This document shows, piece by piece, positions 14,955 through 61,900 of a DNA stretch of 64,000 nt (position 1 is its first letter; each line of letters begins with the position of its first letter). The position numbers and the translations under genes were made by a program. The notes beneath the pieces were generated by a model. That model was not told the DNA's origin. It saw nothing but the letters and a program-made list of their open reading frames with translations, and did not search any database. Source of the stretch: Styela clava (taxonomy: Eukaryota; Chordata; Ascidiacea; Stolidobranchia; Styelidae); NCBI RefSeq assembly GCF_964204865.1, contig NC_135263.1, positions 4,094,501 through 4,158,500 on the forward strand. Reading direction: 5' to 3'.

Positions 14955-15120
14955 GGTACTCCTGTAGTCTGTGTTTGCAGTAGGCAATAATTTTATTCCG
15001 ATTTTTTTAATTTTAGTTCTATTACGAGGTTAGAGACTGTCTGTGTTAGCCAAGTGAATATACCCTCTGCGTGTTGGCTTTCTTCTCTTTACACAACTAG
15101 ATGTAAAGTAGGCGAAATAA
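14955..15120 (+). mobile_element. GTACTCC-family MITE, degraded copy
   Basis: GGTACTCCTGTAGTCTGTG is followed by a body shared with other copies (AATTTTATTCCGATTTT, TTAGTTCTATTACGAG, GACTGTCTGTGTTAGCCAAG, GATGTAAAGTAGGCGAA). The right terminal repeat is not clear. Confidence 0.55.
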
Positions 15121-15207
15121 ATGCTTGCACCAATAATTGTTAGAACATGAAAATGCCGTAAAAAATTCAATGTTAACAAATTAAACATGAAGGGTATATT
15201 CTTTATT

Positions 15208-18629: not shown

Positions 18630-19507
18630 GAAACCACTCTTCCACAATGACTACTTTAAAAGGTAATTGACTGGTATTTGTTCAGTTCATTTTTGTTTGT
18701 TTTTTTAAATAGAAGAGCACAAGTTGTGAACTATTTCAGAGAAGAGTCACGAATCGTGAGAGTTTGAGAGAACCACTGTCAGAGTTCAAAAGTTGGCCAC
18801 ATGAAAAAAAAACACGAAATTAATGCATGGAAACATTCAGAACAACAAACCAAAAAAATATTAAGATAATTCATCATGATATTTTGAAATAATAGGCTGA
18901 ATCATAATAATTTATTGAATGTATTTCAAGCTAATGAACTGCTGTTTCAAACTTTCATGATAATCCTAATTTGATCAATTGTCACAATAGTTTAGTGGTC
19001 TCATTAGGTATGAAAATTCTAGATATCGATACAAAGCACGCATCTAACTATGCAAATGTACATATAAACCAATGAGAACCTGGAAGGCCATCGTACGTAT
19101 ATTGTTATTCTTAAGGCTTAAATGCAAAAGAAATTTAAGCTTCCACAGTGCAGAAAAGGTTGCCAAACCCCTGATCGAGAACTCAATTTTTATCAGATTT
19201 TTTTTTATGTTAAATATTTCACTTAATAATCCTCGATACTTGAAAAACGGGTCATGATCTGTATCAAAATTATTTCAAGACAAAATAATACATCTTAAAA
19301 TAGTTATTTCTCAGAACAATTCATTAAATATGCATATGGCGGTTTGTTATCTCAATGGTGTTACACAACAGCAACGTCATAATCCGGTCTTTGGTTACAG
19401 AATAGCTAGAATTTTGAGTTATGTAAGAAATAATTCAGGGGTTCAAGGTTCAGCTAGGAACCAGAAGATGCTCATAAGTTTTTGCTGAAGAGAGGCAACG
19501 GATAATG

Positions 19508-19722
19508 GGTACTCCCGTAGTATGTGTACCAGGTTAGGATTAGGCCATAATTTTATTTTGATTCTTCTTATTTTAGTTTTTTTTACAAGTTTGGAAACTG
19601 TCTGTCTGTACTAGCCAAATGAATATACCCCCTGCCCATAGGCTTCCGTCCCTTTACACAACTTAATGTAAAGTATGCGAACAAAATTAGTTACCTCCAT
19701 ATTGGTACACACACTTCTGGAG
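19508..19722 (+). mobile_element. GTACTCC-family MITE, near full length
   Basis: The left end GGTACTCCCGTAGTATGTG and the right end GTACACACACTTCTGGAGCG are inverted repeats of each other. The ~215-bp body has the shared blocks CCAGGTTAGG, CCATAATTTTATT, TGAATATACCCCCTGCCCAT and TTTACACAACTTAATGTAAAG. The flanks GGATAAT and GGCTAAT may be a target duplication, but its exact length is unclear. Confidence 0.65.
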
Positions 19723-20036
19723 CGTCGGCTAATGAGCACATGCTATCATAATACTAATCGCTCACCAGTAAGCGATTGTGCCCACAGTGAAGATGCAAGA
19801 AGTTGTTTGCAATATCGTTAGGTTATTATACTGAAGTTCCACCTAACTTAATATTTATATAAAATCCTAAAATATCAATCATTGTGTACAAAGAAAAAAA
19901 TGGATAGGCTTTAAGATAAAATTAAATTCTAATTTTAGGAGACAATTTTATACTTCCACTCTAATCAAGGCTCAGTGCGAGCTTCAACTAATATGTAGGG
20001 AGCTGCGATATTCGGAAAGTTCGATACTGTCTACCT

Positions 20037-21893: not shown

Positions 21894-21901
21894 TATTAAA
21901 C

Positions 21902-22257
21902 CAGGGGTGTGTGCAACCTCAAATACAAAAGGACCATATTCAAAATACTATGTGAAACCGTGGACCGCACCTTTATTTTACATAGGCGTTCTAGTAGTTG
22001 CAGGCACAAAAATTTTGTTTATTGATCTATGACATGTGTTGTTCATTTCGCACAAGCTAGTTATCAGGGCATTGTGACATCATAGGCATAGATAATAAGT
22101 TTGACTCAAGTATAGGCTTCGCAATGCAAAGGGATTGGAATTACTCAAATATACATGATCAAACTAAATTAAAAACTCGTTTCCAAGGCTGCACACCATT
22201 CAAAATTTAGCACTTATTCGGTGGATGTACAATTTTGTTGCTGGTTGCACACCCCTG
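21902..22257. mobile_element. hAT MITE (CAGGGGTGTG family), 356 bp
   Basis: The left end CAGGGGTGTGTGCAACC and right end GGTTGCACACCCCTG are near-perfect inverted repeats. The flanks TATTAAAC (21894-21901) and TACTAGAC (22258-22265) agree at six of eight. Related copies: 37130-37397 and a 5' fragment at about 61178-61330. Confidence 0.8.
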
Positions 22258-29000: not shown

Positions 29001-31406
29001 AGTGTTCACAGCCTAACACGCCACGCTGACAAAAACAATCGCGATTTTAGCAAAAAGCTGTATGAATAGTTGCCCAAAAGTGTGAATTGATAAATGAATA
29101 TTCAATATTTCCCGATTTAACGGGCAAAAAGTAACCCAACAGTAATATGAAAAATCGCAAGTAGTTAAACGAGTAGTTTTAAGTAGCGAAGCGTTGTTTC
29201 CGACAGTAGCCAAATCTGGCACCGCTGCACCAAACATGCTCATCTACACTGATTTTCCATACAGATTCCGACCTATGATCAATAGTTTTTCCGAAAAAAG
29301 CGAAATGTGGCAACATTGCACCGCACATACTTAATTACACTGGTTTCCCGTACAGCAGGGGTCTCAAACTCGTGGCCCGCAGGACGATAGTTTGTGGCCC
29401 CCGCCTTGGTATGAAAGTTCAATGTTAGTGCGGTCCGTAAGTTACTCAGCTCAGTTAGAATGATTGATGCATTTAATATATGATCAGGACAAGTAGAGCA
29501 AAACAAAATATTTCAAAATCTATCCTCCGAAAGGCATATGCGGTACGGTAACCTACTAGTACCGTACCTGTAGCTGTAGGCATGATTATCGATGGACCTT
29601 CCCCGACCTGTGACCTCAACATTTTCGTTTTTATACTTCACCATTGCAAATTTCTTGTTGCTTATTTTAGGGGTGGCTTCACGAGTTGAAGCGTATAAAC
29701 TGGGGTATATGTTGTAACCACTTGCTTCTTTTTGATTCAAAACATTCAACAACCTGTTTTTCAACAGTACCGGTAGAGAAGTTTAGCCTATTCTATCACA
29801 GTTATTTTTACACTAATTTTTGATTACTGCAATTAAGCTACGACGCCCAAGCAATGAATGATCAAAGAATGATCATTTGGTTCTTTGATTCATACTTGAA
29901 TTTCTGAAACACAACCAAAAACTAACAAATAGCATGCAAAAACGAGGTAATGTTTACAAACATGCCTGAAAATCTTTCTGAGTGACAAGTCTCTGAGCGT
30001 TTGCGAAAACGTCTATTGTTACGTTACGTTTTGCGTCTTGCTGATTAGCCAATGTTACGGAATAAACAAGGAAGTAGGTGCTCGACGGAAGGTCTATCGC
30101 GGAATTACTTACATTTATGTTTTTGACATGTTTTGCGTATAGAAAAATAGAGAAAAAAATGTTTTATGCGATGCTTTTATTGTGGAAAATCTGATGCGGC
30201 CCGGACTCACTCAGACTCCGTTTCGGCGGCTTCCAGGTAAATTGAGTTTGAGACCCCTGCCGTACAGATTTCGGCTTTTGTCGATTGCAGTTAAATATTG
30301 CATGTTTTTCAATGAATTTGTCGAATTGTTAATTTTTGTTCAAATGTAGAATGTTTATCGAACTACTAAAAGAAATATCTGAATCTGCCTCAAATCACTT
30401 GGCGTGCCATGAGAAATCCTCTCGCGTGTCACAATTGGCACGCGTGCCAGGGGTTGCCGACCCCTGGCTCAGACTTTATAATTTTCAGTTTAGAAAAGAA
30501 GGATTTGCACAAATATGTTGTTCCTATCGCCGCCGCAATACGCATTGCCATTTGTCTCAGAATGGGAAACTCATCTCCATCGATATCTCTATCGTTGACT
30601 GTGGAATTGAAGTTTTCTATTTCTTTGAAACAAGCATTTCAGTTCGGTTTTTGATTGGATCAATTCAAGTTGCATGTATTCTGGGCCATCTTCTACTCGA
30701 ATTTAAAATGAACACATAAAAATTTTAAAGAGACTGTCGAATTTTTGTAAGTAAGCGAATCTTTCTTCAAATGAGTTCAACAACTTTGCGACTTCGTCGC
30801 ATTATTTATAAAAACTTCAAGTGGGCCACACGCGGCCCGCGGGTTGGACATCCCTGGTCTAGAAGTTGCACTACAAACAAACTGTCTATAAGTTGCAAAT
30901 GAACAATTTACCTGTAAATTAGTGATAGATTTGTGAGTTGTCATCAGATGTGGCATTACTTGATCCAATGATCCTTGCCATTTACATGAGGCTCCGGGAC
31001 ACGGGCAAGAATAAGGCCTGTATTCGCATGTTTCTTCATGTTCAGACTTCTCTGTGTATATTAAAGTCGATTCACAGCCAGATGATACATATCTACACGG
31101 AAATAGTACAGAACTTGCAACTTTTTCCATTCCTAGATTTCTTATATTGCCCAAAGGTCCGCGACATGTTGGGCAGCATGTTAATTTAGGCCTGCAGGCC
31201 CCACAAACTAAATGTCCGCTTTGGCATTGCAAAATTGGAGGTAGGACATAGTCAAAACATACAGGACATTCAAATAAACTCGCTAAGTCATTATTTGAAG
31301 CTATAGTACCATCAGGTTTTCGTCCACTGACAGGCATATCCCCACTATTAGCTTTGGTTGTGTTAGAGGAACAAGTCTGCCGACTCATATTTTTTGGGTT
31401 TGGCAT
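23056..31406 (-). CDS. SIAH1: SIAH-type E3 ubiquitin ligase (seven in absentia homologue), three coding exons
   Basis: SIAH proteins are RING E3 ligases that send bound substrates to the proteasome. Coding exons are 31406-30912, 24462-24269 and 23245-23056; junctions are phase 0 (LQ/GED) and phase 2 (TAT AG/G, giving YRLELNG), all GT-AG. The product is 292 residues from the first ATG, or 286 from the ATG at 31388 (MSRQT), which is where vertebrate SIAH1 begins. The RING runs from C47-x2-C50 through H65, C68, C71 to C81. The SIAH zinc-finger pair spans about residues 102-160. The substrate-binding TRAF-like domain fills the rest ([45 protein letters not shown]). The end carries four extra residues (CNCN) after the usual SMC. 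An acceptor-like TTATTCTTAG lies two bases before the first ATG. SIAH1 versus SIAH2 orthology cannot be settled; invertebrates usually have one gene. Intron 1 is 6,449 bp and full of hAT elements. Confidence 0.96.
23910..24249. mobile_element. hAT MITE in SIAH intron 2
   Basis: It begins CAGGGTGTGCAAATTATGGCC and ends GAAATTGTCTACCCCTG. The flanks TTCTGAAA and TCTAGAAA agree at only five positions, so it is fairly old. Its right end lies 19 bp from the donor boundary of SIAH exon 2 (24269). Confidence 0.65.
24594..25402. mobile_element. hAT element in SIAH intron 1, interrupted by a second hAT
   Basis: The left end CAGTGCTCGCCAACC with TTCGCGACCCAC pairs with the right end TTCGCGACCCAAGCACTG. 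The flanks ATTTAGGG (24586-24593) and CTCTAGGG (25403-25410) agree at six of eight. Without the inner insertion it would be about 320 bp. Confidence 0.75.
24756..25233. mobile_element. hAT element nested inside 24594-25402
   Basis: The left end is TAGGGTTACCATATTTTTG and the right part carries GGGACGTATGATAAGCCTA, a related inverted end. Exact 8-bp flanks CATATTAT are at 24748-24755 and 25234-25241. The right terminus has about six extra bases compared with the left. Confidence 0.75.
25411..28004. other. SIAH intron 1 sequence with small repeats
   Basis: No exon is recognised. A rearranged GTACTCC-family copy lies at about 26515-26715, with several TATGTGAACCAAGATGG and GTACCAGGTTAGGGTTAGGC pieces in both orientations. 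A hAT-like left end (CAGTGTTTCACAATCCACAG) is near 26875. Confidence 0.5.
26515..26715. mobile_element. composite GTACTCC-family MITE
   Basis: Terminal blocks of the family appear in alternating orientation (GTACTCTCAGTCCCATAGTATG, CCAGGTTAGGGTTAGGCCAT, then GGTTCACATACTACGGGAGTACC), indicating a foldback or nested copy. Confidence 0.5.
28426..30466. mobile_element. middle hAT of the nest
   Basis: It begins CAGGGGTCGGCAACCTTTTG and ends GGGGTTGCCGACCCCTG. The flanks GCTTAGAC (28418-28425) and GCTCAGAC (30467-30474) differ at one base. It sits wholly inside 28013-30856 and is itself interrupted at 29356. Confidence 0.9.
29356..30259. mobile_element. innermost hAT of the nest, 904 bp
   Basis: It starts CAGGGGTCTCAAACTCGTGG and ends TTGAGTTTGAGACCCCTG. 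The flanks CCGTACAG (29348-29355 and 30260-30267) are identical. It carries GGCCCGC blocks near both ends but no transposase frame. Confidence 0.92.
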
Positions 31407-36996: not shown

Positions 36997-37129
36997 GTAT
37001 AACATGATTTCACGAATGACCGCAAAGAAGATAAACATGACTTTTTTTGGGGGAAATTTACTCGATTCAGGGATACGGGCACTCACATGGATATATAGGA
37101 GACTCGTCTTTGAGTGAAGTTACGTAGTC

Positions 37130-37397
37130 CAGGGGTGTGCAACCTTCAATCCAGGTGGGCCAGATACAAATAACTGGGTGAAACCAGGGGCCGCACCTTT
37201 ATATGCTTTCAAGTAGTTGCACGCACGAAAATTTTGGCTATTGATCTTATGACATGCCTTGTTATATTCGCACTAGCTAACTGTTAGTAACGTCATATGC
37301 ATAGATGATAAATTGGGGATTGGAAATTCGCACGCACGAGATTAAACCAAATTAAAAACAAGTTTCGCGGGCCGCACACCATTTAAAATTGGCCCTG
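37130..37397. mobile_element. hAT MITE (CAGGGGTGTG family) at the duplication border
   Basis: The left end is CAGGGGTGTGCAACCTTC; the right end ATTGGCCCTG is shorter than in the relative at 21902-22257. The flanks ACGTAGTC and ACGTAGGT are similar. The tandem duplication described at 37278 begins inside this element, so its right portion recurs at 40042 and 42811. Confidence 0.65.
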
Positions 37398-37567
37398 ACG
37401 TAGGTCACTAGTTCACTGAAGTGCCAAGCGCTACTGAAATTTAATTTTATATCTAGGATTGCGTGGTAGAATTAAAGCAGTTCATGTCAGTAAGATCAGG
37501 AAAACAGCCATGCGGTAATGAATTTCACATGCTATCAGACTCATTTCTTAGATTCAAATAAATGGTA

Positions 37568-37772
37568 CTCACGTAGTGTGTGTACCAGGTTAGGTCAAGA
37601 TTTTGTACCGATTTTCCTTATTTTAGTTCTGTTATGAGTTCGGGAACTGCTTGTGTTGGCCAAGTGAATACCCCCCTGCCCATAGGTTTCAGTCCCTTTG
37701 CAAAACTTGGTGTAAAGTAGGCGAACAAAATTAATCATACCTTCATACTGGTAAACACACTTCTGGAGCGCA
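37568..37772 (+). mobile_element. GTACTCC-family MITE in unit 1
   Basis: GGTACTCACGTAGTGTGTG at the left and TGGTAAACACACTTCTGGAGCG at the right are inverted. AATAAAT lies just outside on the left and two bases outside on the right. The same element recurs at 40328-40535 (unit 2) and, mostly deleted, near 43088-43166 (unit 3). Confidence 0.65.
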
Positions 37773-38145
37773 GAATAAATAACTCCATGAAGTAGGTGAG
37801 GCTAATAATGCGCGATCGCTCTCTACCCTAGAAACGTAGTGAAACTAGAAAGATGGCAAAATGCTTTGTTAACACCAAATGAGGCATCGGGGCTGTTTTC
37901 GCTAACTTGTACATTTAGTGTTCTAAGATTGAGTCATGTTGTACATAATTTGCATTTATACAGAAGCAAGGGAAATGACAAATCCTATACTGCTGAACGA
38001 AAATGTCCATATAACTAGTTTTCTCGCGTATTTTAAATTTTGAAAGTGATCTGAATTTTTCGTTCCCAATGCAAAGCCTGCTTTATTGAAAGAATTACTT
38101 GTCACTAATGCCGCATCTGTCGTAGTTCATCGAAAATTTAAAATC

Positions 38146-38153
38146 TATAAAAG
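38146..38153 (+). promoter_or_regulatory. TATA box, lectin first-exon copy 1
   Basis: TATAAAAG, about 200 bp before the copy-1 signal-peptide ATG. The same box stands in the same place in units 2 (40913-40920) and 3 (43539-43546). Confidence 0.6.
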
Positions 38154-38349
38154 TCTTGCTGATCTACATCGTATGATGAACGTAGTAAATTTACAAATTT
38201 TCAGTTATGCATGCCAGATTTCTTTCCAGCCTGTAATGTTAGTTGAAGCTAACCATTCATTGCCCGCATTGGTAGAGTAAGTTTGCCAGTATTTTTCTTT
38301 CAATCTAGTTAAGTATAAGCTTCCAATTGAACTTGCGCGATAAGAAACA

Positions 38350-38416
38350 ATGTTGAGGATGTTTGTGGTTCTTGTGGCTTTCTGCCTTGGCGTCGCTTTT
38401 GCCACGAATAGTCAAA
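38350..38416 (+). CDS. lectin signal-peptide exon, copy 1 (partial gene)
   Basis: The ATG opens a 22-codon exon with a hydrophobic core and an AFA cleavage-type site, ending in phase 1 at a GTAAGT donor. It is the duplicate of exon 1 of the intact lectin-like gene at 43747 and differs from it at residues 7 and 12 (V and C in place of A and S). No exons 2-5 follow before the next unit. It could be a dead fragment, or a usable alternative first exon that splices onto the shared downstream exons. Confidence 0.75.
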
Positions 38417-39833
38417 GTAAGTAACTGGTATTTTTCGTTATTGTTTGTTCACAAAAATCACGCATAATTAATTTACAACCTGTAAGATTGGAATCGGAGT
38501 TTGTCATGTTTTCAATGCAGTGAGGTGGTGTCGAAATGGAGAAGATATATTTTGAATTATCTTAGTCAGAATTTCATTCTTTCGTTGGCGATTATAAAAA
38601 TCAAAATAAGGCATCAAGTTTATTAGATGGTTTTACCAGTACTAAGGTTTTACCAGTAACAAGGCGCAGCCAAAGTTTTTATCACCAAATTTAATTTTTT
38701 CGAAGCCGGAATCGAAGTCTAAAATTTTATTGAATTCGGAGTAAATATGTATCTCTCCCTATCTGTCTATAGCAGTGTTTCCCAACCCGAGTCCGCGGTC
38801 TCAAATGAGTCCGCGGAGCGTTTGAATGAGTCCGCAACGAGCCAGAAATTCATTGCGGCCGCAAACGTTTTTGCGAAACTCGACTATCAGCCTAGTTACG
38901 ATTTACGTTAGAATTTACATAAAACATAAAAAGCAAGTTTATTCACATAACATTGAGTCAATAATTACTGGTTACTGAGTAGGGCTGGGCATATATTCCA
39001 ATATCCAACTATTAGAATAGCAATTTACTACTCGAAAACTTGGTAACAGGTGACGCGATAGGTCACTTGCGCGTCGAATAATCAAACGATGCGATTTCAC
39101 AACTCACTTGCGGATTTCCGACGAAAACACGAGTCTGCAAACGCGTCGATAGATAACCCAAGTGGTGCTTCTCGCGAGTTCGAACAACGAGAAATATTAA
39201 TTGTTAATATTAATAAATATTAATTTTTTTTCGGTAGGCGTCAATGGTGGAAACCCCAATTTTCTTATTTGAAAAGCGGCAATACACAATACTAAAAATA
39301 AAACGGAGAACACCGTAAGTTTTGTTTTATGATGGTCCTCGACCGATTGAAAACGCTTTTTTAGACATTGCAAATCGCAAATTTTCGGGTGCAACCGTTA
39401 TATACGTACGTACCAGGGCGTTTCCCTTAGGATTCTTTGCTTTACCGCCTTCACATTGGTACGTACAGTATTGCCGTTGGATGTTGTACGAACAGCTCAG
39501 ATTTGTCGAATTCACAAACATAAAAATGAATACAAAGTATAATCCGGCACTCTATCACGCAATTTTGTGTCCACGAATTGTCATTGATACTTTCTGTGTA
39601 GTATTGCTTTTATTTTGTCAACACAACCGCAGAATAAAATGACCACAATTAATATAATAATAAAGCAAGGCGATGAATATGTATTTTTGATTTACTAATA
39701 TACTTTAAATATTCTTTCAAGTACTAAATAAAGTTGTACTTTCTGGAAATTTATAGCAGATAGTAGGATTTTTCTAACGGCCATAACGAATTTGCAAGAT
39801 CACATAAAATATGTATCAAAACTAAATATAATA

Positions 39834-40036
39834 GGATAGGATTTCACATGTTTATCCCCGGGGAGAGGAAAGCCGATAAGACGGAACAATCATATAGCAA
39901 ACCACGGCCTATCGTCCGGTTACTAGTCCAGTCGGGCAATATATTTTCACATGTTATGTTCGCTGATTGCCGTGGCTTTTTAATTAAAGAAGTAATGCTT
40001 CATCTTATCGTAAGCCGACGCAACCGCGAGTTACCA
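39834..40036 (-). mobile_element. SINE fragment at the end of unit 1
   Basis: ATAGGATTTCACATGTTTAT, then GGGGAGAGGAAAGCCGATAA and ACCACGGCCTATCGTCCGGT, match the SINE 3' part. It is duplicated at 42600-42808 as part of unit 2. Confidence 0.6.
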
Positions 40037-40912
40037 TGAACTAACTGTTAGTAACGTCATATGCATAGATGATAAATTGGGGATTGGAAATTCGCACGCA
40101 CGAGATTAAACCAAATTAAAAACAAGTTTCGCGGGCCGCACACTATTTAAAATTGGCCCTGACGTAGGTGATTAGTTCACTGAAGTGCCAAGCGCTACTG
40201 AAATTTAATTTTATATCTAGGATTGCGTGGTAGAATTAAAGCAGTTCATGTCAGTAAGATCAGGAAAACAGCCATGCGGTAATGAATTTCACATGCTATC
40301 AGACTCATTTCTTAGATTCAAATAAATGGTACTCACGTAGTGTGTGTACCAGGTTAGGCCAAGATTTTGTACCGATTTTCCTTATTTTAGTTCTGTTATG
40401 AGTTCGGGAACTGCTTGTGTTGGCCAAGTGAATACCCCCCCTGCCCATAGGTTTCAGTCCCTTTGCAAAACTTGGTGTAAAGTAGGCGAACAAAATTAAT
40501 TATACCTTCATACTGGTAAACACACTTCTGGAGCGCAGAATAAATAACTCCATGAAGTAGGTGAGGCTAATAATGCGCGATAATGCTCTCTACCCTAGAA
40601 ACGTAGTGAAACTAGAAAGATGGCAAAATGCTTTGTTAACAACAAATGAGGCATCGGGGCTGTTTTCGCTAACTTGTACATTTAGTGTTCTAAGATTGAG
40701 TCATGTTGTCCATAATTTGCATTTATACAGAAGCAAGGGAAATGACAAATCCTATACTGCTGAACAAAATTGTCCATATAACTAGTTTTCTCGCGTATTT
40801 TAAATTTTGAAAGTGATCTGAATTTTTCGTTTTCAATGCAAAGCCTGCTTTATTGAAAGAATTACTTGTCAATAATGCCGCATCTGTCGTAGTTCATCGA
40901 AAATTTAAAATC

Positions 40913-40920
40913 TATAAAAG
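40913..40920 (+). promoter_or_regulatory. TATA box, lectin first-exon copy 2
   Basis: TATAAAAG, in the same sequence context as in units 1 and 3. Confidence 0.6.
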
Positions 40921-41116
40921 TCTTGCTAATCTACATCGTATGATGAACGTAGTAAATTTACAAATTTTCAGTTATGCATGCTAGATTTTTTTCCAGCCTG
41001 TAATGTTAGTTGAAGCTAACCATTCATTGCCCGCATTGGTAGAGTAAGTTTGCCAGTATTTTGCTTTCAATGTAGTTGAGTATAAGCTTCCAATTGAACT
41101 TGCGCGATAAGAAACA

Positions 41117-41183
41117 ATGTTGAGGATGTTTGTGGTTCTTGTGGCTTTCTGCCTTGGCGTCGCTTTTGCCACGAATAGTCAAA
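41117..41183 (+). CDS. lectin signal-peptide exon, copy 2 (partial gene)
   Basis: The coding part is identical to copy 1 at 38350, with the same phase-1 GTAAGT donor. Like copy 1 it lacks downstream exons of its own; the next exons of the right phase are those of the gene at 43747-47302, about 3.1 kb on. Confidence 0.75.
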
Positions 41184-42599
41184 GTAAGTAACTGGTATTT
41201 TTCGTTATTGTTTGTTCACAAAAATCACGCATAATTAATTTACAACCTGTAAGATTGGAATCGGAGTTTGTCATGTTTTCAATGCAGTGAGGTGGTGTCG
41301 AAATGGAGAAGATATATTTTGAATTATCTTAGTCAGAATTTCATTCTTTCGTTGGCGATTATAAAAATCAAAATAAGGCATCAAGTTTATTAGATGGTTT
41401 TACCAGTACCAAGGTTTTACCAGTAACAAGGCGCAGCCAAAGTTTTTATCACCAAATTTAATTTTTTCGAAGCCGGAATCGAAGTCTAAAATTTTATTGA
41501 ATTCGGAGTAAATATGTATCTCTCCCTATCTGTCTATAGCAGTGTTTCCCAACCCGAGTCCGCGGTCTCAAATGAGTCCGCGGAGCGTTTGAATGAGTCC
41601 GCAACGAGCCAGAAATTCATTGCGGCCGCAAACGTTTTTGCGAAACTCAACTATCAGCCTAGTTACGATTTACGTTAGAATTTACATAAAACATAAAAAG
41701 CAAGTTTATTCACATAACATTGAGTCAATAATTACTGGTTACTGAGTAGAGCTGGGCATATATTCCAATATTCAACTATTAGAATAGCAATTTACTACTC
41801 GAAAACTTGGTAACAGGTGACGCGATAGGTCACTTGCGCGTCGAATAATCAAACGATGCGATTTCACAACTCACTTGCGGATTTCCGACGAAAACACGAG
41901 TCTGCAAACGCGTCGATAGATAACCCAAGTGGTGCTTCTCGCGAGTTCGAACAACGAGAAATATTAATTATTAATATTAATAAATAATAATTTTTTTTGG
42001 TAGGTGTCAATGGTGGCAAGCCCAATTTTCTAATTTGAAAAGCGGCAATACAAAATACTAAAAATAAAACGGAGAACACCGTAAGTTTTGTTTTATGATG
42101 ATCCTCGACCGATTGAAAACGCTTTTTTAGACATTGCAAATCGCAAAATTTCGGGTGCAACCGTAATATACGTACGTACCAGGGCATTTCCCTTAGGATT
42201 CTTTGCTTTACCGCCTTCACATTGGTACGTACAGTATTGCCGTTGGATGTTGTACGAACAGCTCAGATTTGTCGAATTCACAAACATAAAAATCAATACA
42301 AAGTATAATCCGGCACTCTATCACGCAATTTTTTGTCCACGAATTGTCATTGATACTTTCTGAGTAGTATTGCTTTTATTTTGTCAACACAATCGCAGAA
42401 TAAAATGATCACAATTAAATTAATAATAAAGCAAGGCGATGAATATGTATTTTTGATTTACTAATATACTTTAAATATTCTTTCAAGTACTAAATAAAGT
42501 TGTACTTTCTGGAAATTTATAGCAGATAGTAGGATTTTTTCTAACGGCCATAACGAATTTGCAAGATCACATATAAAATATGTATCAAAACTAAATATA

Positions 42600-42808
42600 A
42601 TAGGATAGGATTTCACATGTTTATCCCCGGGGAGAGGAAAGCCGATAAGACGGAACAATCATATAGCAAACCACGGCCTATCTTCCGGTTACTAGTCCAG
42701 TCGGGCAATATATTTTCACATGTTATGTTCGCTGATTGCCGTGGCTTTTTAATTAAAGAAGTAATGCTTCATCTTATCGTAAGCCGACGCAACCGCGAGT
42801 TACCATGA
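42600..42808 (-). mobile_element. SINE fragment at the end of unit 2
   Basis: A near-identical duplicate of 39834-40036, carried by the tandem duplication rather than by a new insertion. Confidence 0.6.
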
Positions 42809-43538
42809 ACTAACTGTTAGTAACGTCATATGCTTAGATGATAAATTGGGGATTGGAAATTCGCACGCACGAGATTAAACCAAATTAAAAACAAGTTTCG
42901 CGGGCCGCACACCATTGGCCCTGACGTAGGTCACTAGTTCACTGGAGTGCCAAACGCTACTGAAATTTAATATTATATCTAGGATTGCGTGGTAGAATTA
43001 AAGCAGTTCATGTCAGTAAGATCAGGAAAACAGCCATGCGGTAATGAATTTCACATGCTATCAGACTCATTTCTTAGATTCAAATAAATAGTACTCACGT
43101 AGTGTGTGTACCAGGATAGGCCAAGATTTTGTACCGATTTTCCTTATTTTAGTTCTGTTATGAGTTATGAGAATAAATAACTCCATGAAGTAGGTGAGGC
43201 TAATAATGCGCGATAATGCTCTCTACCCTGGAAACGTAGTGAAACTAGAAAGATGGCAAAATGCTTTGTTAACAACAAATGAGGCATCGGGGCTGTTTTC
43301 GCTAACTTGTACATTTAGTGTTCTAAGATTGAGTCATGTTGTCCATAATTTGCATTTATACAGAAGCAAGGGAAATGACAAATCCTATACAGCTGAACAA
43401 AAATGTCCATATAACTAGTTTTCTCGCGTATTTTAAATTTTGAAAGTGATCTGAATTTTTCGTTTTCAATGCAAAGCCTGCTTTATTGAAAGAATTACTT
43501 GTCACTAATGCCGCATCTGTCGTAGTTCATCGAAAATC

Positions 43539-43546
43539 TATAAAAG
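43539..43546 (+). promoter_or_regulatory. TATA box of the intact lectin-like gene
   Basis: TATAAAAG, 201 bp upstream of the ATG at 43747. Several short upstream ATGs lie between it and the start codon. Confidence 0.65.
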
Positions 43547-43746
43547 TCTTGCTGATCTACATCGTATGATAAACGTACCAAATTTACAAATTTTCAGTTA
43601 TGCATGCCAGATTTCTTTCCAGCCTGTAATGTTAGTTGAAGCTAACCATTCATTGCCCGCATTGGTAGAGTAAGGTTGCCGGTATTTTGCTTTCAATTTA
43701 TCTAGTTGAGTATAAGCTTCCATTTGAACTTGCGCGCTAAGAAACA

Positions 43747-46700
43747 ATGTTGAGGATGTTTGTGGCTCTTGTGGCCTTCTCCCTTGGCGTTGCTTTTGCC
43801 ACGAATAGTCAAAGTAAGTAACTGATATTTTTCGTTATTGTTTGTTCACAAAAATCACGCATAATTAATTTACAACCTGTAAGATTGGAATCGGAGTTTG
43901 TCATGTTTTCAATGCAGTGAGGTGGGGTCGAAATGAAGAAGATATATTTTGAATTATCTTAGTCAGAATTTCATTCTTTCGTTGGCGATTATAAAAATCA
44001 AAATAAGGCATCAAGTTTATTAAGTGGTTTTACCAGTAACAAAGCGCAGCCAAAGTTTTTATTTTAATTTAATCAAATTGAATTTTTTCGAAGCCGGAAT
44101 CGAAGTCTAAAATTTTACGACTGAATTCGGAGTAAATATGTTTCTCTCCCTATCTGTCTATAGCAATGCTTGAAAATTACCAAAAACTAAGTGAGATGAA
44201 TTATGTATGCGTTTGTTAAAAATTACGAATTCGGTAACAAAATAATTATTCATTACTTAGGTCTGTATGTTACTGCAATTTAATTTTTACATTTGACTGT
44301 TTTACACAGGTGGAGTTTGTGTCATCAAACTAGTTAAAGGCAAACTGGTGTCAGTGGGTGATTGTCAGGTATGAAATTAAATTTAATTATTTGGGTGGTG
44401 GTCTGTGCGCAGTCCATGTTAGTATCTTAGAAAGACGCTCTTCGTTTTTTTTTTTGAGGCATAAGCGTGTCCAGCAGACAATTTTCTTGTTTGACGGAGT
44501 AAACTTACTGTCTTGCTGACAGACTTAATACGAATGCGCAATTTCATATATCTCGGTTGGTTTGTTTGGCTAAGGGATTGATCATAAGTATCAGTGAATC
44601 GCTCATGATTAGTGCACGTAATTGAGCAAAATTCTATTGAAAAAGGCGTACAAGTTTATGTCTCAAATAACGCAAAATTGCCTTCCAAGAAAATGTTGTA
44701 AGAATGGTTTTTGGTTTTACGGGTATATATATATTTTTTCCCACTGGAAATACCTATGCTTTAAGAATCAGTGAGGTAGTGGACCTGGGTACCGCGCTGG
44801 GTACTCAGAAGGTGCGGAAGCGAACGTATTCCTCCCGATGCGCCGGGTCAAATTCTTCGTACGTAATGTTCACATATTTAAGACGTTTTCCATAACATGT
44901 TTCATTTTTTGGTTCAGAAAAACGACGGATCTGGTAAGTACCATTTTGCAACGTTAATGCCTATGGCACCATACGGGTGCCACAAAAATATCATGCTATA
45001 TTTTTATGAATCTCACTCCATATAAAGTCAACGCTTCAACCTTTTGCCAAAGTAATACATCTATCCTGAACCAACACGAATTCCACTTCATATTCTTACT
45101 TTAACAATTTGCGCCTGATAGGCATAGATTTATTCTGGGATCAATCCTATTTTGGTTATTATTGAATTGCTCGCGCTTGTCAAAGTCGTGTGGTTATCTG
45201 AAGTGTTTTATAGATGAATTATTTCAAAACTTTCAGTTATTTGAACTTGAAGAAATTATAACATATTAAATGCACATTGCAATAATTTCACTGGACTATT
45301 CTGAATTACCAATGCCTCGTACTGAAGTTTGAGTCGAATTTAATGGATGGTTCCCCGAGCATCGATTGCCTTGTTCAATTCCTTAACAATAACCAATCAG
45401 AAATGAGTCAACAATGACGTAACAATCACTACTCGTTAAGCCGCTAAGACACTTCTTTCGCTCAGACAGATATTAATTTATTCTTCCTGCACACTATATT
45501 TCTATAACTGGCGATATATCGTTTGTTTCGTTTAGAGATTGCCAGATTGATGAAGCGGGATCTGAAAATGAAGCAAAAAGGTTAGAACCGTTATGGTTGA
45601 AGTAATTTCAAACCTCAGTACGAGGTAATGTTCAGTCGAATACTTCAGGATATAGTTTTATTGGATTTTTTTAAGTCGAAGGATGTTTATCGCGGCTGTT
45701 CAATAGTTAAATTAATGAAATTGCAAACAGAGACAAGACAAAATGAAATTTAGGATTTTCATATTTATCGCGGGAGAAAACATATGATATGGTGAACCAC
45801 GGCCTCTCACCCGGTTGTCAGTCCATGTCGGGTATAGTTTTAAAAACTTTCACTGGTCCGCGGTTCCCTTCCAAAGATTGTTAACACTCCGTGCTCCTTC
45901 GCTCTTCTACTTTAAAACAAATATTTTTTACAAGTAATATTCATTCATTTCATTTGCCATGTTTAAGAACTAAACGGCAACAAACGAAAGTAAAATAATA
46001 ATTGTACTACAGTTTATGAAACTTTGAGTTGGGTTGTGCGAGATTAACTCCCTATTTGTCCTTAATGCCAGTGGATCCGTATGCATATACTGCAAGGATG
46101 CTGTAGCAGGAGTAAACAATAAATACCCTATTAAAGAATCCTGCTGCACACTAACACAGATGTAATGTTTCGTCCGACCAAAGTCAGACTTCCCCAGACA
46201 AACAGTTTACAACTGTAACACATATGCGTTGGTGTGCTGCAGGATTCTTTAGTTGAAGAAGTTTGAGAAACCCTGGGCTATGAGATGTATTCAACGTTCC
46301 CCTCCCGCAGGCATGTAATGTAGCAATCAATATTCATTTATTTACAAACATTATATTTATTCCACCTATTTAGGAAGATGTGACATTCTTTATAAGTCAA
46401 AATGTTTCCATGCGATCGTATATCCAACCCACAACGCCAACTTTGAAGATGCTCAGGCTGCTTGCAAAAAGCACAAATGGAAACTGGGCAACGTTTATGA
46501 CGTCATGAATTACCTTCTGCTGCAAGACTTCTTTGTTACCATGATACCCGCTGACCAGTCACTGATCAACGTATGGACTGGAATGACGTACACGGTGTGC
46601 TAATTAATTCTTTGTGTGTTCAAATTGATATAAATGAGATGTTTCCTTATCTTTATTGGGTACTCACGTAGTATGTGAACCAAGATGTCGGTCACCGGAA

Positions 46701-47302
46701 CGTAGTATGTGCACCAGGTTAGGGTTGGCCATAATTTCAGGTACAAATACTACGAGAGTCAATTGGCTAATCCCCGAACTCGTAATAGAACTAAAATAAG
46801 AAAAATTGGAATAAAATTATGGTCTAACCCTAACCTGGTACACATACTATGTTCAGGTGTTCGCCAACCTGGTTCGCATACCTCATTGGGTGCTCCTGAA
46901 GTATGCGCACCAAGATGTCGAATAACCTGAACCCTAAACTGGTACACAACCTGAGTTCAGGTTGGGCGCCATCTTTGGGCGCATACTTCAGTACATTTTG
47001 TAATGCTGATTAATCACGACTGTGGCTATATATAAGTGGAACCCTATCGATTTTTTTGCGAGAAAACGATTTCTCGCAAAACAATTTTTTCAAAGCTGTT
47101 TAATTTATTCCTACAGAACGGCAACCTTAGACTGACATCTGGCAAGGAGGCAACTTTCCCAGAACAATTATGGAAACCTTATTCCAATACACAGTGGACA
47201 AATGTTGTCTTCGCTGTCCGAAAAGTTCGAAAAAAGAACACTCGAGATATTTTCAATATTGCACCAGACTGGGAGTATAACGGCGTTCTTTGTGAAGATT
47301 AA
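43747..47302 (+). CDS. secreted C-type lectin-like protein, five exons
   Basis: Exons: 43747-43813, 44310-44368, 44918-44933 (16 nt), 46374-46594, 47117-47302; all GT-AG, phases 1, 0, 1, 0. The product is 182 residues. Residues 1-18 are a signal peptide (hydrophobic VALVAF core, AFA end). Residues 23-48 form a short linker with two Cys. The C-type lectin-like domain covers about 48-182: RCDILYKSKC hairpin, FEDAQAACKKH helix, VWTGMTY in the WIGL position, and the final VLCED cysteine. The inner pair of cysteines and the EPN and WND sugar/calcium motifs of classical lectins are absent, so calcium-dependent sugar binding is doubtful. A basic KVRKKN run interrupts the last exon. AATAAA stands four bases after the stop. 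It is a paralogue of the minus-strand gene at 52981. Specific function unknown. Confidence 0.88.
45750..45850 (-). mobile_element. SINE fragment in lectin intron 3
   Basis: TTTATCGCGGGAGAAAACAT, then ACCACGGCCTCTCACCCGGT and GTCCATGTCGGGTATAG, match the SINE 3' half in minus orientation. Confidence 0.5.
46657..47000. mobile_element. cluster of GTACTCC-family palindromic pieces in lectin intron 4
   Basis: Several terminal blocks of the family in both orientations (GGTACTCACGTAGTATGTG, ACCAAGATGTCGG, CTGGTACACATACTATG, GGTGCTCCTGAAGTATGCG, TGGGCGCATACTTCAG). The second half (about 46890-46995) reads as a foldback hairpin. Intron 4 is 522 bp and most of it is this insertion. Confidence 0.6.
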
Positions 47303-47305
47303 GTC

Positions 47306-47311
47306 AATAAA
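47306..47311 (+). promoter_or_regulatory. polyadenylation signal of the secreted lectin-like gene
   Basis: AATAAA begins four bases after the TAA stop, implying a very short 3' UTR. Confidence 0.7.
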
Positions 47312-47857
47312 GCCAGTTGTTTTTCATGGGACAGTTAAGATTCTGTCTTAAATTTCTGTCTTTGTTTCAAGTCTTACAATGTATTTTGCAGTTATATCTT
47401 TTTTCGTAGAAGTTAAATTTGAGTGTAAAGAAAACTTAGAGATATGTTTTCTATTTCACCGAACTACATTATTCTGTTGATTTCCAACCTTCTGCGTTGA
47501 ATTCCTTCGTTCGCTTATTTTAGGACTCTTTAGTTCTTTTTACCCACTATGTATGAAAGCACTTTATTTGATTAATTTTTCTAATTTTCGTCTTGAACGC
47601 TTGGGGCGAATTGCGTTGTTCCACTTTGGCTGCTGATTTTCAATTAATATCTGCCACCCTGAGGGTTTTCATTACCGAACTTGGCTAATTCGTCGTCGCA
47701 TGTTTCCGTAACTTGGAGTTACTTTGTATCAACATATCGATTCACTTTTTTTAAGTTGCACAACTAATGGTGTTGTACGCTGACTGAGAAAATTTCCCTA
47801 TTTTAGTTCTATTACGAGTTCGGGGTCTGTCAGTGCTAGCCAACTGTTTACCAATAT

Positions 47858-48042
47858 GGAGGTATGTAATTTTGTTCGCCTATTTTACATCAAGTTGTGT
47901 AAAGGGACTGAAATCTATGGACAGGGGGTATATTCACTTCATCAACACAGACAGTCCCCGAACTCGTAATAGAACTAAAATATAGAACATCGAAATAAAA
48001 TTATGGCCTAACCTTAACCCGGTACACATACTACGGGAGTAC
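47858..48042 (-). mobile_element. GTACTCC-family MITE, minus orientation
   Basis: It ends on the plus strand with ACACATACTACGGGAGTACC and contains GTTTACCAATATGGAGGTA, TTTTACATCAAGTTGTGTAA and CCCCGAACTCGTAATAGAAC, the inverse of the family body. Confidence 0.6.
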
Positions 48043-49204
48043 CCAAATTCCGCCCATTTTTAGAAGGTTATGGATTCAAAAAAGTGCAAGGTAGAAAATA
48101 TCATTCTCTGATTTGTATACTGCTATGCCTGTCTAATATCTGCATACTGTATTTATTAATGCACTCGGTATATATATTGGTATTTATTTAAACCAAGTAA
48201 TTAATTCTGGGATGGGAAGTAAGATTACTCACAAAATATCCCTAGTGCCTTGCATAATAGTTAAAATTGAAAAGCAATTTAACTAAAAAAAACGCTGATA
48301 CTCTGATACAAAATCTCAATTAACTTCCGAAATTACTGCTCAGCGATTACCTAAGTGAAATCGGGATTATTTTTTAAAGCTTTTATGATATCTATGTAAC
48401 CTTCAATATTGCAATAATGAAAAACGTTAAAACATTGACAAAGCAAAAGCCAAGGCAAAAGGTTGAGCCACAAGAACTGTGAAACAGGAGCAACCATCTA
48501 TATAAGAATATAAATGACAAGCATACTTTTGTGAAAGGAGAGTAGACGTTCATAACCAAAATAAAATCGATCAATGGATTGTTAAACACGTGTAGTTTTC
48601 AATAAAACGAAAGCTTTCAGACTATACTGTGACTCGAACGTACAATATACTCGTACATTGACAAAGCAAACGCCAGGAAGGGGGTTGAGTCACAAAAACT
48701 CTAAAATGAGGGAAGCCTATAATAGCGTACATACGGAGTAAACACTAAAAGAAACATTCGGGGTGAATGAAATGAAGGCGCGGAAAACCAATACTGGTTA
48801 TCGAGCACCCCTGAGTAAGCCTAACGGCCCAACTGATTATCCCCCTGTCCATAGGTTTCAGTCCCTTTACACAACTTGATGTGAAGTAGGCGAACAAAAT
48901 TAGTTATCTCCATATTGGTAAACATACTTTTGGAGCGTCTTTGTTTTGCGAGAGAGTTATACATAGCCAAGAAATTCGTGAATTTGACTCTCATGAATAT
49001 AATAGTGTCAGCTAATCGTAGAAATCTGATTGAGCCAAATAAAGTGAGCTAAAATGCAATACAGATGTCAAAAAATGTGCCTGGGCGACGCTAGATAAGC
49101 GAAATAATGATCCACTGTATGATGAAGGTACGGAACCTTCTGGTTTGGCATTGCCCAATTTATTAGGCTTCCCGCTGCTTGTCAGCAGGGAACCTATTGT
49201 ATTC

Positions 49205-52153: not shown

Positions 52154-52481
52154 AGGATAGATAGGATTTACATATTTATCCCGGGAGAGAGGAAAGCCGA
52201 CAAGACGGCTTAACCATATGGCGAGCCACGGCCTCTCGTCCGGTTACCATTCCACGTAGGGTATGGGATAAGTTGGTTATTTGTTTTCGGAAGCATGGAC
52301 TTGATGGCGGAGGAAGCCGTAACCGACCAGCGGTTACGTGAACCACGAGGAGTCCAGCAATCCTCTCGCACATAACTATCCCAGCATGGGATTCGAACCT
52401 GCGAACCCACGCAGAGTAATCAGAGGTGCGGTGGTGAGCGTATTCCTAACGCTTAGCACGAGGAGACACATCGCTGCGCCC
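52154..52481 (-). mobile_element. tRNA-like SINE, most complete copy
   Basis: On the minus strand the head GGGCGCAGCGATGTG..., the pairing GCGTTAGGAATACGC and the B-box GGTTCGAATCC look like a tRNA with a long variable arm (Leu/Ser type). The body runs through GTGCGAGAGGATTGCTGGAC, GTTACGGCTTCCTCCGCCAT and CGGACGAGAGGCCGTGG to the GATAAATATGTAAATCC tail. It is too altered to be a working tRNA gene. Confidence 0.78.
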
Positions 52482-55900: not shown

Positions 55901-58900
55901 TGTATAAATTCATGTTGCCAACCTAGTGAGCTGATGTTTACTTTTGCATGACAAGATATAAATGTACCCTTATGTTACATAAAAAAATATCATTTTGTAA
56001 CGCCAGAAAACTGAAATATTTATTTATATTATCATGAAATACTTTTTAGAACTGCAGTCGGGGACATGAGCATATTTATTCAACTTAGCACAGATTTGAA
56101 AATCGAAGTTGCAAACGGTACATCTTCGGTAGGAAAAAATTTGCCATTTCAGAAAAGCATATCTTTTAAGGGTGCTCCCGAAGTATGTGCACCAGGATGG
56201 CGCACAACCTGAACATAATATGTGTACCAGGTTAATGTTCAGGTTGTGCGCCATCTTGGTGCACATATTTCCGGAGCGCCCTTTTTAGTACGAACCAACC
56301 CGTAATCAAGAGTCGAAGAATGTTTTGGATTAGTTTAGAATTGGAGTCGCGTGTAACTCTTCTACAGCTCTACAACTGATTTAACGTAATCAAAAATTTT
56401 CAGTATTCGTCACCTGTGCTCTGATCTTTCAATGGTGGCGTGGACTCAAATGTAGATGGCGCTATAGAGGTAACGGATCTGGTGTCAAATTCAGTAGTTA
56501 CGTCATCCATTGTGTAGTTAATGGCGTCATCAGTGGTTGGCAAAGCAACATTTTTCTTGCTAGTGTCGATGACGTCATCAGTTGTGGGAGTTATGTCGGA
56601 ATTGGTGATTTCGGTTGAGTGAATTTGACCGTTAACATTAATCTGAGTTGAGATGGTGATTTCGGCATCTGGATTTTTCAACAAAACTGATTCAAGTTTT
56701 TTCGTCAGTTTGTCTCTCAGCTCTGAAATAAGAAGATAAGACTCGACATTGAACATTTTAGTGAAAGACTCTCAAGACTCTCAGCTCCTTAACAGTGGCA
56801 GCTTGTCCAAAGCTTTGTTCAGAGAGATGATACGCAGACACCTCATATACTAAGAGTGCTTCCGCATATGAAATTCAAATTCTGGTGGTGACACCGAGGA
56901 ACCGTTTTTGCCTAAGGTTTCGCGCAGGTCGCGTCTGCAACCGTTCACACAGTACTGTGGAGTCGGGGTTTAACATGTTTTCACTGACGCCAGAGTCGTA
57001 TATTCAAATACCCCGGACTCGGAGTCTAAATTTCTCGTCGGAGTCGAAATTTCAAACTTTCAATGGTCATAAAATAAATCAAAACAGCATACTAAGATAT
57101 CCTACTAAGCAATAATTTCCTTTCTTCAACAAGTTATTGAAGAAGGGGGGTATATACGGCGTTATCAAACATTGGATTTTGATCGGAGTCAAAATTGATT
57201 AAAACCCGGAGTCTATTTTTCTCAAACCGGAATCGATCGTAAATTTTTTCACAGCACTGGTTTACACAGACGAAACTCGAAAATTTCACTTCGTTTTTGG
57301 ATGGCGGTACACGTGAGTAACCGCGTGACGTCGGCAGTTATTTTTTTCAATCTATGCTAGCTCTAGAAATGTTGAAAAGGCGACAAACGCTGGTCTCTCG
57401 TTCATTTGAAGCAGAATATGTAAATGACATTGGCATGGTAAATACAACTCTCTAACACGACGTTCAAATTGTAAAATCGAGCCAAGATTTAACAGTTCTG
57501 GTCCGCCCTAACTAATAATTAAATTGACCCATTCGCTTTAGTTGAGCCACGTTTAATTCCCAGAGAGAAAATTTGTCGTTTATGGGAAAGAATTTTGGTT
57601 TGTATTTGCTAAGTATTACTACTATTTTTTAGTTGTTCATTATTACTTGAATACTTATTCATACGCGCATTTTGAACTACTTGAACTGTAAAAAAGCCGA
57701 TGCGCAACTTGCGCACTCCCATTTATAAAATTGATCAATTTGGCAGTGGCAATCATGATAAATTTATTAATATGGTGTGGCAAGTAATTTTTATTTATTT
57801 ATTTTTTATTAACAACCAGTATGTAATTTTTCATGTTCCCTTTACTCAATAACTTCTATATGGTTGTGTGTGTGGGTGCATGTGAGCGTGTGTGAAATAT
57901 TTCAATTATTTTAGGTGAGTGAACACGTACCACATCTTCTTGGCAAAACCTTCCATCTTATATACATTCTGTACGTTTTAAACCTTATCTAAGGTTTTGT
58001 TCGCTCTCCTGATTTCATAATCAGTTTTTATTTATTTATTTTTACCATTCATTTTATTGTTTTGCTGATTATGGAGTCGAAATAAACTTATACTTATATA
58101 CTAACACTAGCTGAGGACCCATTAAAGATTGTTATGCATAGTGAGAGAGGAATAAAGAGTTCCAAAATGGGCGAAAGATTTACCAAAACAAGGTCGGGAG
58201 CCACTGATTTATTGTTACTCCCTTAGTGTGTACCAGGTTAGGGTTAGGCCATAATTTTATTCCGATTTTTTTTAATTTAGTTCTATTACGAGTTCGGAGA
58301 CTGTCTGATGCCAAGGGAATGTTTCAGTCCCTTTAAACAACTTGATATAAAATAAGCGAACAAAATTAGTTACCTCCATATTGGTACACATACTTCCGGA
58401 GCGACGATATATTATAACCATCAATCCAGTTACTATGCCATATTCTCTCAGATTTTCACATTAACCAGTTACTCACCTTCCTCACTTGACGCCTGTTGAA
58501 TGAAATAAAAACAAAATTTAGTTTTTGGAAAGGGTTAACAATAAAATGATCACGCGTTCGGGACGTGACTCACCGTAATTATCGCTTGCTCGTCACAGGA
58601 CTCACTGACTGACTCAGATCCGAGATGAATGTTCATGGAGATATCGACTGTGAAATATAATTGAAACTTTTAATCATTAATGAACCGAAGTTAAATAAAG
58701 TATTTACTAGCGCGTGATGCTCCACCATAATTCTCTATGGTTTCAGTATCTCATGTCAGTGGATCATTTAACCAACTTCAGACATCTCACTGGACCACAC
58801 AAAAAAAATAATTTTTCTATTTACATACCCAATTACAAAAATTATCACAATGTCAGATTTAACGCAGTGGGTGTTGACAAGAGTCACACTAAATGGCGGG

Positions 58901-61900
58901 CCCGGTTGTGGCCCGCGGGTCGCCTGTTGTACACCCCAGATTTATACCTACAGTAAACGAATTAGGCTTAAGCTTTTATGTGTGAATCGGTATGTTAATG
59001 GTGTATAACGCACCACCATTATTCTATTTGGCTTTCCAGTTTCTCTGTAAATCCTTTCCTACAGGCGTATAACACAACACCATAATTGTCTATGGTTTCA
59101 CTATTTCTCGGCACTTCAGTGATCGCTCGTAACTGGAAAGATGAGTTTTTTTTACGTCTAAGTGAGTGCACGTAACATTGTTTTCAACACATTTACAACA
59201 CAAAACTGTTGTAAAGATTTGCGTCAGATATAAATTAATTCTGATTTACCTGTGATACAACATTATCTAGAATTTACTAAGGATATGATGTCGCGAATAT
59301 ATCCTACAATACTTCCAACTTTGAGACACAAAAAATGAAGCTCTGAAGTGGTAAAAATTTGAACTCCGACTACATGGAATTCAATCTACGATGCTTTTAA
59401 AAAAAGCTCGAGTTCACATCCCTTGTTTTCTATAAAACGCCGTGTTGGAAAGATGCCCCTAAACCGCGAATAAATAGCGTTCCAAAATAGGCGAAGAAAT
59501 TTAGGAAAAAGGTCGAGAGACACTGATTTATTGTTACTCCCGTAGTGTGTGTACCAGGTTAGGGTCAGGCCATAATTTTATTCCGGTTTTCCTTATTTTA
59601 GTCCTATAACGAGTTCCGGACTGTCTGTGTTAGCCAAGTTAATATACACCCTGCCCATAGGTTTTAGTCTCTTCACACACGGCTCATCTGAGGGTTAGAT
59701 CGAGTCGATCACGGAGCTAAGATAATTAGTTAAGTACGAGTTATTTATATAATGTCGCTTCAAGTCTTTGATAAAACTCCTGTCAAGTCGATGTCTCTTA
59801 CCTTCCCAACACTGATAAAAGTATTTCTCAATTCATATACCGTGTTTCCCCGAAAATAAGACAGTGTCTTATTTCAATTTTCTTTCGAAAAATAACACTG
59901 GGCTTATTTTCGGGGGATGTCTTATATTTCCATTTATCAAAAACAAAATTAGAAAGAGGAGAATTAGCGATATTTTCAAATAAACAAAATATGAAAATCG
60001 ATATCCACTTACATATGAATGACATGTTTTCCTCTCTCACTTTATAATAACTATTTAAATCGTGTCGGAGAGATTCCTTGCTATCGACTAGGACTTGTTT
60101 GAAGGGAAGGCTTAAAATAAAATCATTTTAAAATTCAGGATAGGTCTTATCTTCGAGGAAACACGGAATCTTGCTTAAATTCAACGAAAATCAAAGAAAC
60201 AAAATATAAAAAAAATTTCACCTGCAAATGCGCCTCCCAAGCAGACAAGCCAAATGAAGGTTGATGAAAACCATGTAGGCTTCGACGTATCCCAATCCTC
60301 GCTTCCAAAATACTAAAACAAGAAAATAAGGGCATGTACTATAACTAAAAGCATGAACTTTTTCCATTTTTGTTATAATTTTAGATTTTTATTATATTGC
60401 ATGCACATGCAACGAATGCACATACAACCAAGCTTTGGCCGCATGCATACATGTGAGTCATCTGTGGCCCAACTGTTTTAACTGTTATTAATTCTAATAC
60501 GTGATGCACATTATTTTGAGCAAAAACTCGGAATAGAAACCCGGAGGAAGTTGCATTACTCTTTCCAGCGGAAGGTCATTAAACCAATGACGCACCCAAA
60601 TCAGATCTTTATAGATAATAATCTATGATCAAGATTGGTCCAGTGATTAACAGGTTCTTTATCATTGGTAAAAGTATAGAAGATACCAATTTCAAATCTT
60701 AAAATGCGATGCATTATTTGGCACAAAACTCGAAATAAGGAAATTGTTTTTCCTACGCACAGTGACACACCCTAAAGAGTCATTTTTTGTGTGCGATGTC
60801 GTCATCAAAATTTGCCACTGTATAGCGCTACGTGTCCATATATTTGAGCATAGCTCTCTTGTTTATTAAAATACAGTGAGAGATTTATTATTTTGTCCCC
60901 CAAATAAAATACTTTCACAAACGAATAAGCAACAGCAATAAAATTGTTTTGGTATGGACAGGAGGGATCGATACGACCATGCGGTCATCAAGGTCAGCTC
61001 CAACCATATGCGCTGATGCGGATAAGATTGACACCGAAATATGAAATTTTTATTCGCTCAAGATGTATCTTCCATAAAGTTTTTTTTTTAAATTTTCATC
61101 TTAAACGCTTGGAGCAGATTGCGTTGCTTCATTTTTGCCGCTAATTCCCTAGAAATTTCTGCTACCTTATAAGTCAGGGGTGTGCAACCTTGTATACAGG
61201 GAGGCCAGATAGAAATAACTTGGTGAAACCGCGGGCTGCAACTTTATTTAACATAGGCTTTCTAGTAGTTGCAGGTACAAAAAATTGGGTTAATGATCTC
61301 TTGGCATGCGTTGTTCGCTTTTGCCATTTGCACTTGCATTTATAATTTATCTTACTTCATTTAGCTCAATACGATTTCTCCGTCATCTGACACTATTATA
61401 TTCACGGTAGTCAAATTCACGAATTTCTTGGCTATGTTCAACTCTCTTGCAAAAAATGACGCTTCGGAAGTGTCTGTACCAATATGGAGGTAACTTATTT
61501 TGTTTGCCTATTTTACATCAAGTTGTGTGAAGGGACTGAAGCTTATGGGCGGGGGCAGCGCCGGATTAACCATTGAACAATATAAGCACGTGCTTAGGGC
61601 ACCAAGCAAAGAGAGGCACCACAGAAATTTTAGAGCAGAATTTTATATCGTTTATCGGTGTTTATTAAATATTACGAGTTCACCAGGCGACTCAAACTTC
61701 AAAATTTTCGCTTATTTTTCGTCTTCAAGTATCATATCGATCTTCTTTATTAAAAATAAACACTGAAACTTTTTTTAGGCAAGAAATGGGCCTATGAGTC
61801 GTTTTCTTAAATTGTTGTTGTTTTTTCTATAGTACTACTATAGTATTCTCCTTGTTGCTGCATTTTAGTTTTAAAAAAAATCTTTTCTTTTCAACAATTG

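Follow-up and report, generated by a model that had tools for sequence, protein, structure and literature searches.

Three copies of the start of a predicted lectin-like gene

The 64,000-nucleotide stretch of the Styela clava genome analysed here (NC_135263.1, positions 4,094,501 to 4,158,500, forward strand; hereafter the window, with 36.5% G+C and no N) contains a predicted lectin-like gene whose 5' end lies in three direct copies. A direct-repeat search places these copies at spacings of 2767 and 2630 bases, measured at exon 1, and the match between them (97.9% over 3134 aligned bases) greatly exceeds chance. An earlier reading made from the letters without database searches (the sequence-only reading) had described three tandem units of about 2.77 kb. 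The three direct copies stand, but the array consists of two full units of about 2.77 kb and a truncated third of only about 1.36 kb, whose match ends at about 44165. In every unit a common upstream region is followed by TATAAAAG, a leader and a 67-nucleotide signal-peptide exon (22 codons plus one base) that runs into a GTAAGT donor, and the ATG context GAAACAATG is identical in all three. The TATA box, leader, 22-codon exon and phase-1 donor of the earlier reading are thereby confirmed in each unit. The array and the gene that follows it comprise the following features:

37277..40040, plus strand: unit 1, full, about 2.76 kb
38146..38153, plus strand: TATAAAAG of unit 1
38350..38416, plus strand: exon 1 copy of unit 1, 67 nucleotides, with phase-1 GTAAGT donor
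38773..40040, strand not assigned: segment X of unit 1, starting with CAGTGTTTCCCAACC and containing repeat pieces
40041..42809, plus strand: unit 2, full, about 2.77 kb
40913..40920, plus strand: TATAAAAG of unit 2
41117..41183, plus strand: exon 1 copy of unit 2, identical to the unit 1 copy
41540..42809, strand not assigned: segment X of unit 2
42810..44165, plus strand: unit 3, truncated, about 1.36 kb, without segment X
43539..43546, plus strand: TATAAAAG of unit 3
43747..43813, plus strand: exon 1 of unit 3, adjoining the remaining exons
44310..44368, plus strand: predicted exon 2 (frame and GT/AG only)
44918..44933, plus strand: predicted exon 3, a 16-nucleotide microexon that keeps the lectin frame (frame and GT/AG only)
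45536..45580, plus strand: predicted exon 4 (frame and GT/AG only)
46374..46594, plus strand: predicted exon 5, coding for the first part of the C-type-lectin-like domain (frame, GT/AG and a weak Lectin_C match)
47117..47302, plus strand: predicted exon 6 with stop codon (frame; AATAAA at 47306)

Exons 2 to 6 are predictions resting on frame and splice dinucleotides. Whichever of the three first exons is joined to these five exons, the result is an open frame of 197 amino acids, which bears out the claim that units 1 and 2 have open frames, intact donors and phases that fit exon 2 at 44310. It had also been held that only the third unit is followed by exons 2 to 5: unit 3 alone does adjoin the gene, but the further exons number five, not four. 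Exon 1 is the same in units 1 and 2 (0/67 differences) and differs at four sites between either of them and unit 3, two of which are replacements (V7A and C12S) and two silent. As had been stated, these coding differences lie in the signal peptide only, and the mature protein would be the same from all three starts.

Downstream of exon 1 the units part at a common GTCTATAG. In units 1 and 2 it is followed by segment X, which starts with CAGTGTTTCCCAACC and measures about 1.27 kb, and in unit 3 by the remainder of intron 1. The homology of unit 3 ends there, at about 44165. A further 129 alignment columns, part of a dispersed repeat in the distal upstream region, are missing from unit 3.

Borders of the array and divergence between its units

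The left edge of the array falls within a repeat:

37130..37397, strand not assigned: hAT-like non-autonomous repeat (CAGGGG...CCCTG ends) holding the left edge of the array

Unit 1 starts at about 37277, inside this repeat, and the repeat continues leftwards at unit 1 only. Its relatives in the window lie at 21901-22207 and 61175-61315; the match of 21901-22101 to 37129-37314 crosses the edge of unit 1, and that of 61175-61315 to 37130-37263 ends before it. Units 2 and 3 keep only the right part of the border repeat, joined to ...GCAACCGCGAGTTACCATGAA, and the two internal junctions share this novel sequence (41 bases to the left and 24 bases to the right agree). A left edge in a repeat that extends leftwards at unit 1 only, together with common novel junctions, argues for tandem duplication. 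A common novel junction and differing outer flanks, by which a partial tandem duplication is recognised, are both found here.

Segment X begins with a hAT-like end; for both repeat ends the name hAT is our assumption from the end sequences. No matching right end was recognised in segment X. The possibility that units 1 and 2 contain an entire hAT element was rejected, as exact matching of the mirrored end GGGAAACACTG against the window gave only the two left ends. The segment was likewise discarded as a source of alternative downstream exons: its forward open reading frame (ORF) of 106 amino acids in unit 1, the only frame of X searched, gave no match in Pfam at E 1 or below, and in unit 2 it is shorter. 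Two dispersed repeats also touch the array. One, of about 200 bp, occurs in both orientations, and unit 3 lacks most of its copy; the other contains GAGAGGAAAGCCGA and lies near the end of segment X:

37564-37770, 40327-40535, 14955-15122, 19502-19724, 47845-48043, 48829-48937, 58213-58403, 59532-59673 and 61460-61555, among others: dispersed repeat of about 200 bp
39831-39923, 6246-6337 and 52160-52254: second dispersed repeat

Units 1 and 2 are 98.5% identical (2713/2755 aligned bases, gaps left out), and unit 3 differs by substitution at about 3% of sites (41/1338 against unit 1 and 41/1340 against unit 2). Over the 1338 columns shared by the three units there are 50 substitutions, 32 of which separate unit 3 from the others, with nine private to unit 1 and nine private to unit 2. 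Of the gaps, seven separate unit 3 (four with bases missing, three with extra bases) and one separates unit 1; a further single-base gap of unit 1 falls within the 129-column gap of unit 3. Given the equal numbers of private substitutions, 9 and 9 of 50, the idea of unit 2 as a mosaic of units 1 and 3 was dropped.

Within this pattern one stretch stands out. Over 570 bp (38312-38881) units 1 and 2 show a single difference, a value matched by 0.9% of 20000 random placements of 47 differences. The stretch spans exon and intron, and unit 3 differs there at 4/67 exon and 11/341 intron sites. Near-identity across exon and intron alike, with unit 3 differing, speaks for exchange between units 1 and 2 rather than for constraint, and an exchange is what the stretch looks like. 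A small exchange tract between units 2 and 3 may lie at 37801-38139, where these two are closer than elsewhere (P 0.026, uncorrected).

Constraint, transcripts and competing explanations

Between units 1 and 2 the differences number 5/523 in the distal region, 8/339 in 37801-38139, 6/210 from TATA to ATG, 0/67 in exon 1, 1/358 in the intron and 22/1258 in X. The TATA-to-ATG interval, that is the putative core promoter and leader, thus has the highest share of the six segments, and it is more diverged than the rest (P 0.0499). This is one of the two P values below 0.05 among 15 tests of one segment against the others, all uncorrected. Exon 1 of unit 1 differs from that of unit 3 at 4/67 sites as against 37/1271 elsewhere (P 0.15), which gives no sign of exon 1 conservation. 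Over the three pairwise comparisons no segment of promoter or exon is consistently conserved.

Nor do intact signals say much about function. In a neutral simulation, which scored the exon, the donor GT and TATAAAA, 63-91% of copies were intact at 0.75-3.5% divergence with substitutions only, and 46-65% were intact with an assumed 0.005 indels per site. As most recent neutral copies stay intact, an open frame, a donor and a TATA box are weak evidence of function. The TATA word itself, TATAAAAG, occurs four times when both strands of the window are counted (6.3 expected), at least four occurrences being found in 88/100 shuffles, and three of the four are the homologous copies in the units. A sigma-70 scan gave 24 sites against 36.0 in shuffles, with a model unsuited to this type of gene; Rfam at gathering score and ARAGORN gave no matches.

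A transcript starting in unit 1, 2 or 3 would have a first intron of 5893, 3126 or 496 bases, respectively, the other introns of the gene measuring 522-793. These first introns contain 14, 7 and 0 AATAAA (6.2, 3.3 and 0.5 expected from base composition) and 9, 5 and 0 ATTAAA. An acceptor-like TAG lies 41 nucleotides upstream of each ATG, with a pyrimidine share of 0.69-0.75 that is the range of the gene's five predicted acceptors. The score is a pyrimidine count only, and as other AG sites of the leader (e.g. 38230, 38276) reach the same range, it singles out no acceptor. Joining an upstream donor to the site at -41 yields a product of 33 amino acids ending in a stop, and joining it to the sites at -120/-124 yields one of 27 amino acids; the acceptor-like leader sites of units 2 and 3 could in this way capture upstream donors and give stops. 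The TATA-to-ATG intervals of units 1, 2 and 3 hold five, six and four upstream ATGs, all of them ahead of the -41 sites, so that an acceptor there would remove them. The presence of upstream ATGs in the leaders makes a spliced 5' end plausible.

The explanation we favour, and consider probable though by no means certain, is that the 5' end of the lectin-like gene was recently duplicated in tandem, with borders in transposon-like repeats, unit 3 being the working promoter and units 1 and 2 young passengers. In this account, unequal exchange would have joined an allele carrying an element in intron 1, behind GTCTATAG, to an element-free allele. The result would have been unit 3 preceded by a unit like 1 and 2, and a second exchange would have produced the third copy. 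The promoter of unit 3, next to the coding exons, would be the one at work. Units 1 and 2, perhaps weakly transcribed, may start some RNA, part of which may reach exon 2, and selection would not have kept them.

Several points weigh against this explanation. No first exon, ATG context or donor of the three units is damaged, and units 1 and 2 have the same exon 1. In the region 37801-38139 units 2 and 3 differ less (4/334 as against 37/1006 elsewhere; P 0.026), which could reflect constraint or exchange; this low divergence is not repeated in the other two unit pairs. Three copies give a test for constraint little power, and constraint on a signal peptide is compatible with two silent and two replacement changes. 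Only the 570-bp stretch speaks for exchange, as the longest difference-free run that units 1 and 2 share, 331 bp, is unremarkable (P 0.11). Units 1 and 2 may not be silent, and the allele model is a proposal drawn from a single assembled array.

The sequence-only reading had proposed that all three units act as alternative promoters and first exons of one gene, each exon 1 being spliced to exon 2, the mature protein unchanged and the output raised or widened. The geometry does allow three starts, as frames, phases and donors are compatible in all units, the ATG context is common to them and units 1 and 2 do not differ in exon 1. There are also precedents for the use of duplicated first exons (PMC7101342, PMC1885805). 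Leader and exon, however, are without consistent constraint, nonfunctional copies too would be expected to stay intact, the word TATAAAAG does not exceed its chance frequency, and AATAAA and competing acceptor-like sites lie before exon 2, so that we regard three working promoters as unlikely. We give little credence to a bolder version, in which the three near-identical promoters and signal-peptide exons are all used and kept alike by exchange, forming a promoter copy-number device for dose that may vary between individuals. Transcription of units 1 and 2 might also be mostly unproductive, exon 1 being joined to exon 1 (38416 to 41076, 41183 to 43706) with an early stop and a lowered output. 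The pyrimidine share of the -41 TAG, equal to that of the predicted acceptors, the short products of 33 and 27 amino acids from the -41 and -120/-124 joins, and the five, six and four upstream ATGs that the -41 acceptor would strip fit such a scheme. Its acceptor score is a pyrimidine count in which other leader AG sites do as well, and trans-splicing in this organism is a guess; we hold it to be very improbable.

The three units could finally be an assembly artefact, one or two of them being alleles of a heterozygous animal placed end to end. Highly polymorphic marine invertebrates reach such divergence between alleles, and the values seen here (1.5% for units 1 and 2, about 3% for unit 3 compared with either) fit that range; the absence of segment X from unit 3 is also what a second allele might show. 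Against it, the window is free of N, both internal junctions are one novel sequence and unit 3 also starts at the junction. A common novel junction at which unit 3 starts requires one or more genuine tandem copies if the junction is not itself an error, and the artefact is in our view highly improbable.

Partial tandem duplication of genes with borders in repeats is an ordinary class of event. The array resembles it in that the 5' part is copied and the coding body is not, the borders lie in repeats and the copies are young; no difference from it is visible in the sequence. The array also shares the layout of the UGT1, Gcnt2 and clustered protocadherin loci, with tandem first exons that have their own upstream regions and compatible phases ahead of shared downstream exons. 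In PMC1885805, Ugt1 and Gcnt2 are described as having a distinct promoter before each variable exon, which is spliced to constant exons, and the variable exons of Ugt1 as unusually large, with differing products and mainly birth-and-death evolution. Diversified first exons of the UGT1 type are not found here: those of units 1 and 2 are identical and that of unit 3 is two signal-peptide residues apart. Unlike the UGT1 type, the first exons of the array are near-identical candidates that code for the signal peptide only. Another precedent has a duplicated first exon ahead of shared exons 2-11, and the array likewise duplicates a first exon.

The array is a clear example of how candidate alternative first exons can be gained by a repeat-bordered duplication that leaves the coding body uncopied. 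If all three starts were used, it would offer a way to test in nature whether the number of promoters by itself determines dose. If they were not, it would warn against reading much into intact first exons and TATA boxes of young duplicates.

The downstream gene and other features of the window

The protein predicted from the array's gene matches Pfam Lectin_C at E 0.022 (15.9 bits) over its whole length and at E 0.011 (16.9 bits) over the domain, below the cut-off of 22.6 bits. A second gene of the same kind lies further downstream:

54103-53892 and 53178-52981, minus strand: second C-type-lectin-like gene, two exons, 32% identical over the domain

This gene matches Lectin_C similarly weakly (E 0.034, 15.3 bits), and as both genes were read its intron agrees with that of the first in place and phase. 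A tblastn search of the window with the first protein did not find first exons of the second gene. Among solved structures phmmer gave nothing better than E 0.5 (rhodocetin beta subunit, E 0.76), and a profile of the two sequences against PDB gave type II antifreeze protein at E 0.66. The same profile gave 8pjs_A (SAKeCEref) at E 1.8e-9, which has no stretch passing alone and was set aside as a presumed sum of repeat matches. We weakly designate the putative gene product as 'lectin-like' and nothing firmer.

Three further ORFs of the window have Pfam matches:

8947-10170, plus strand: tRNA_SAD and tRNA-synt_2c
12013-13914, plus strand: mitotic checkpoint protein family MAD
30777-31406, minus strand: Sina zinc finger and RING finger

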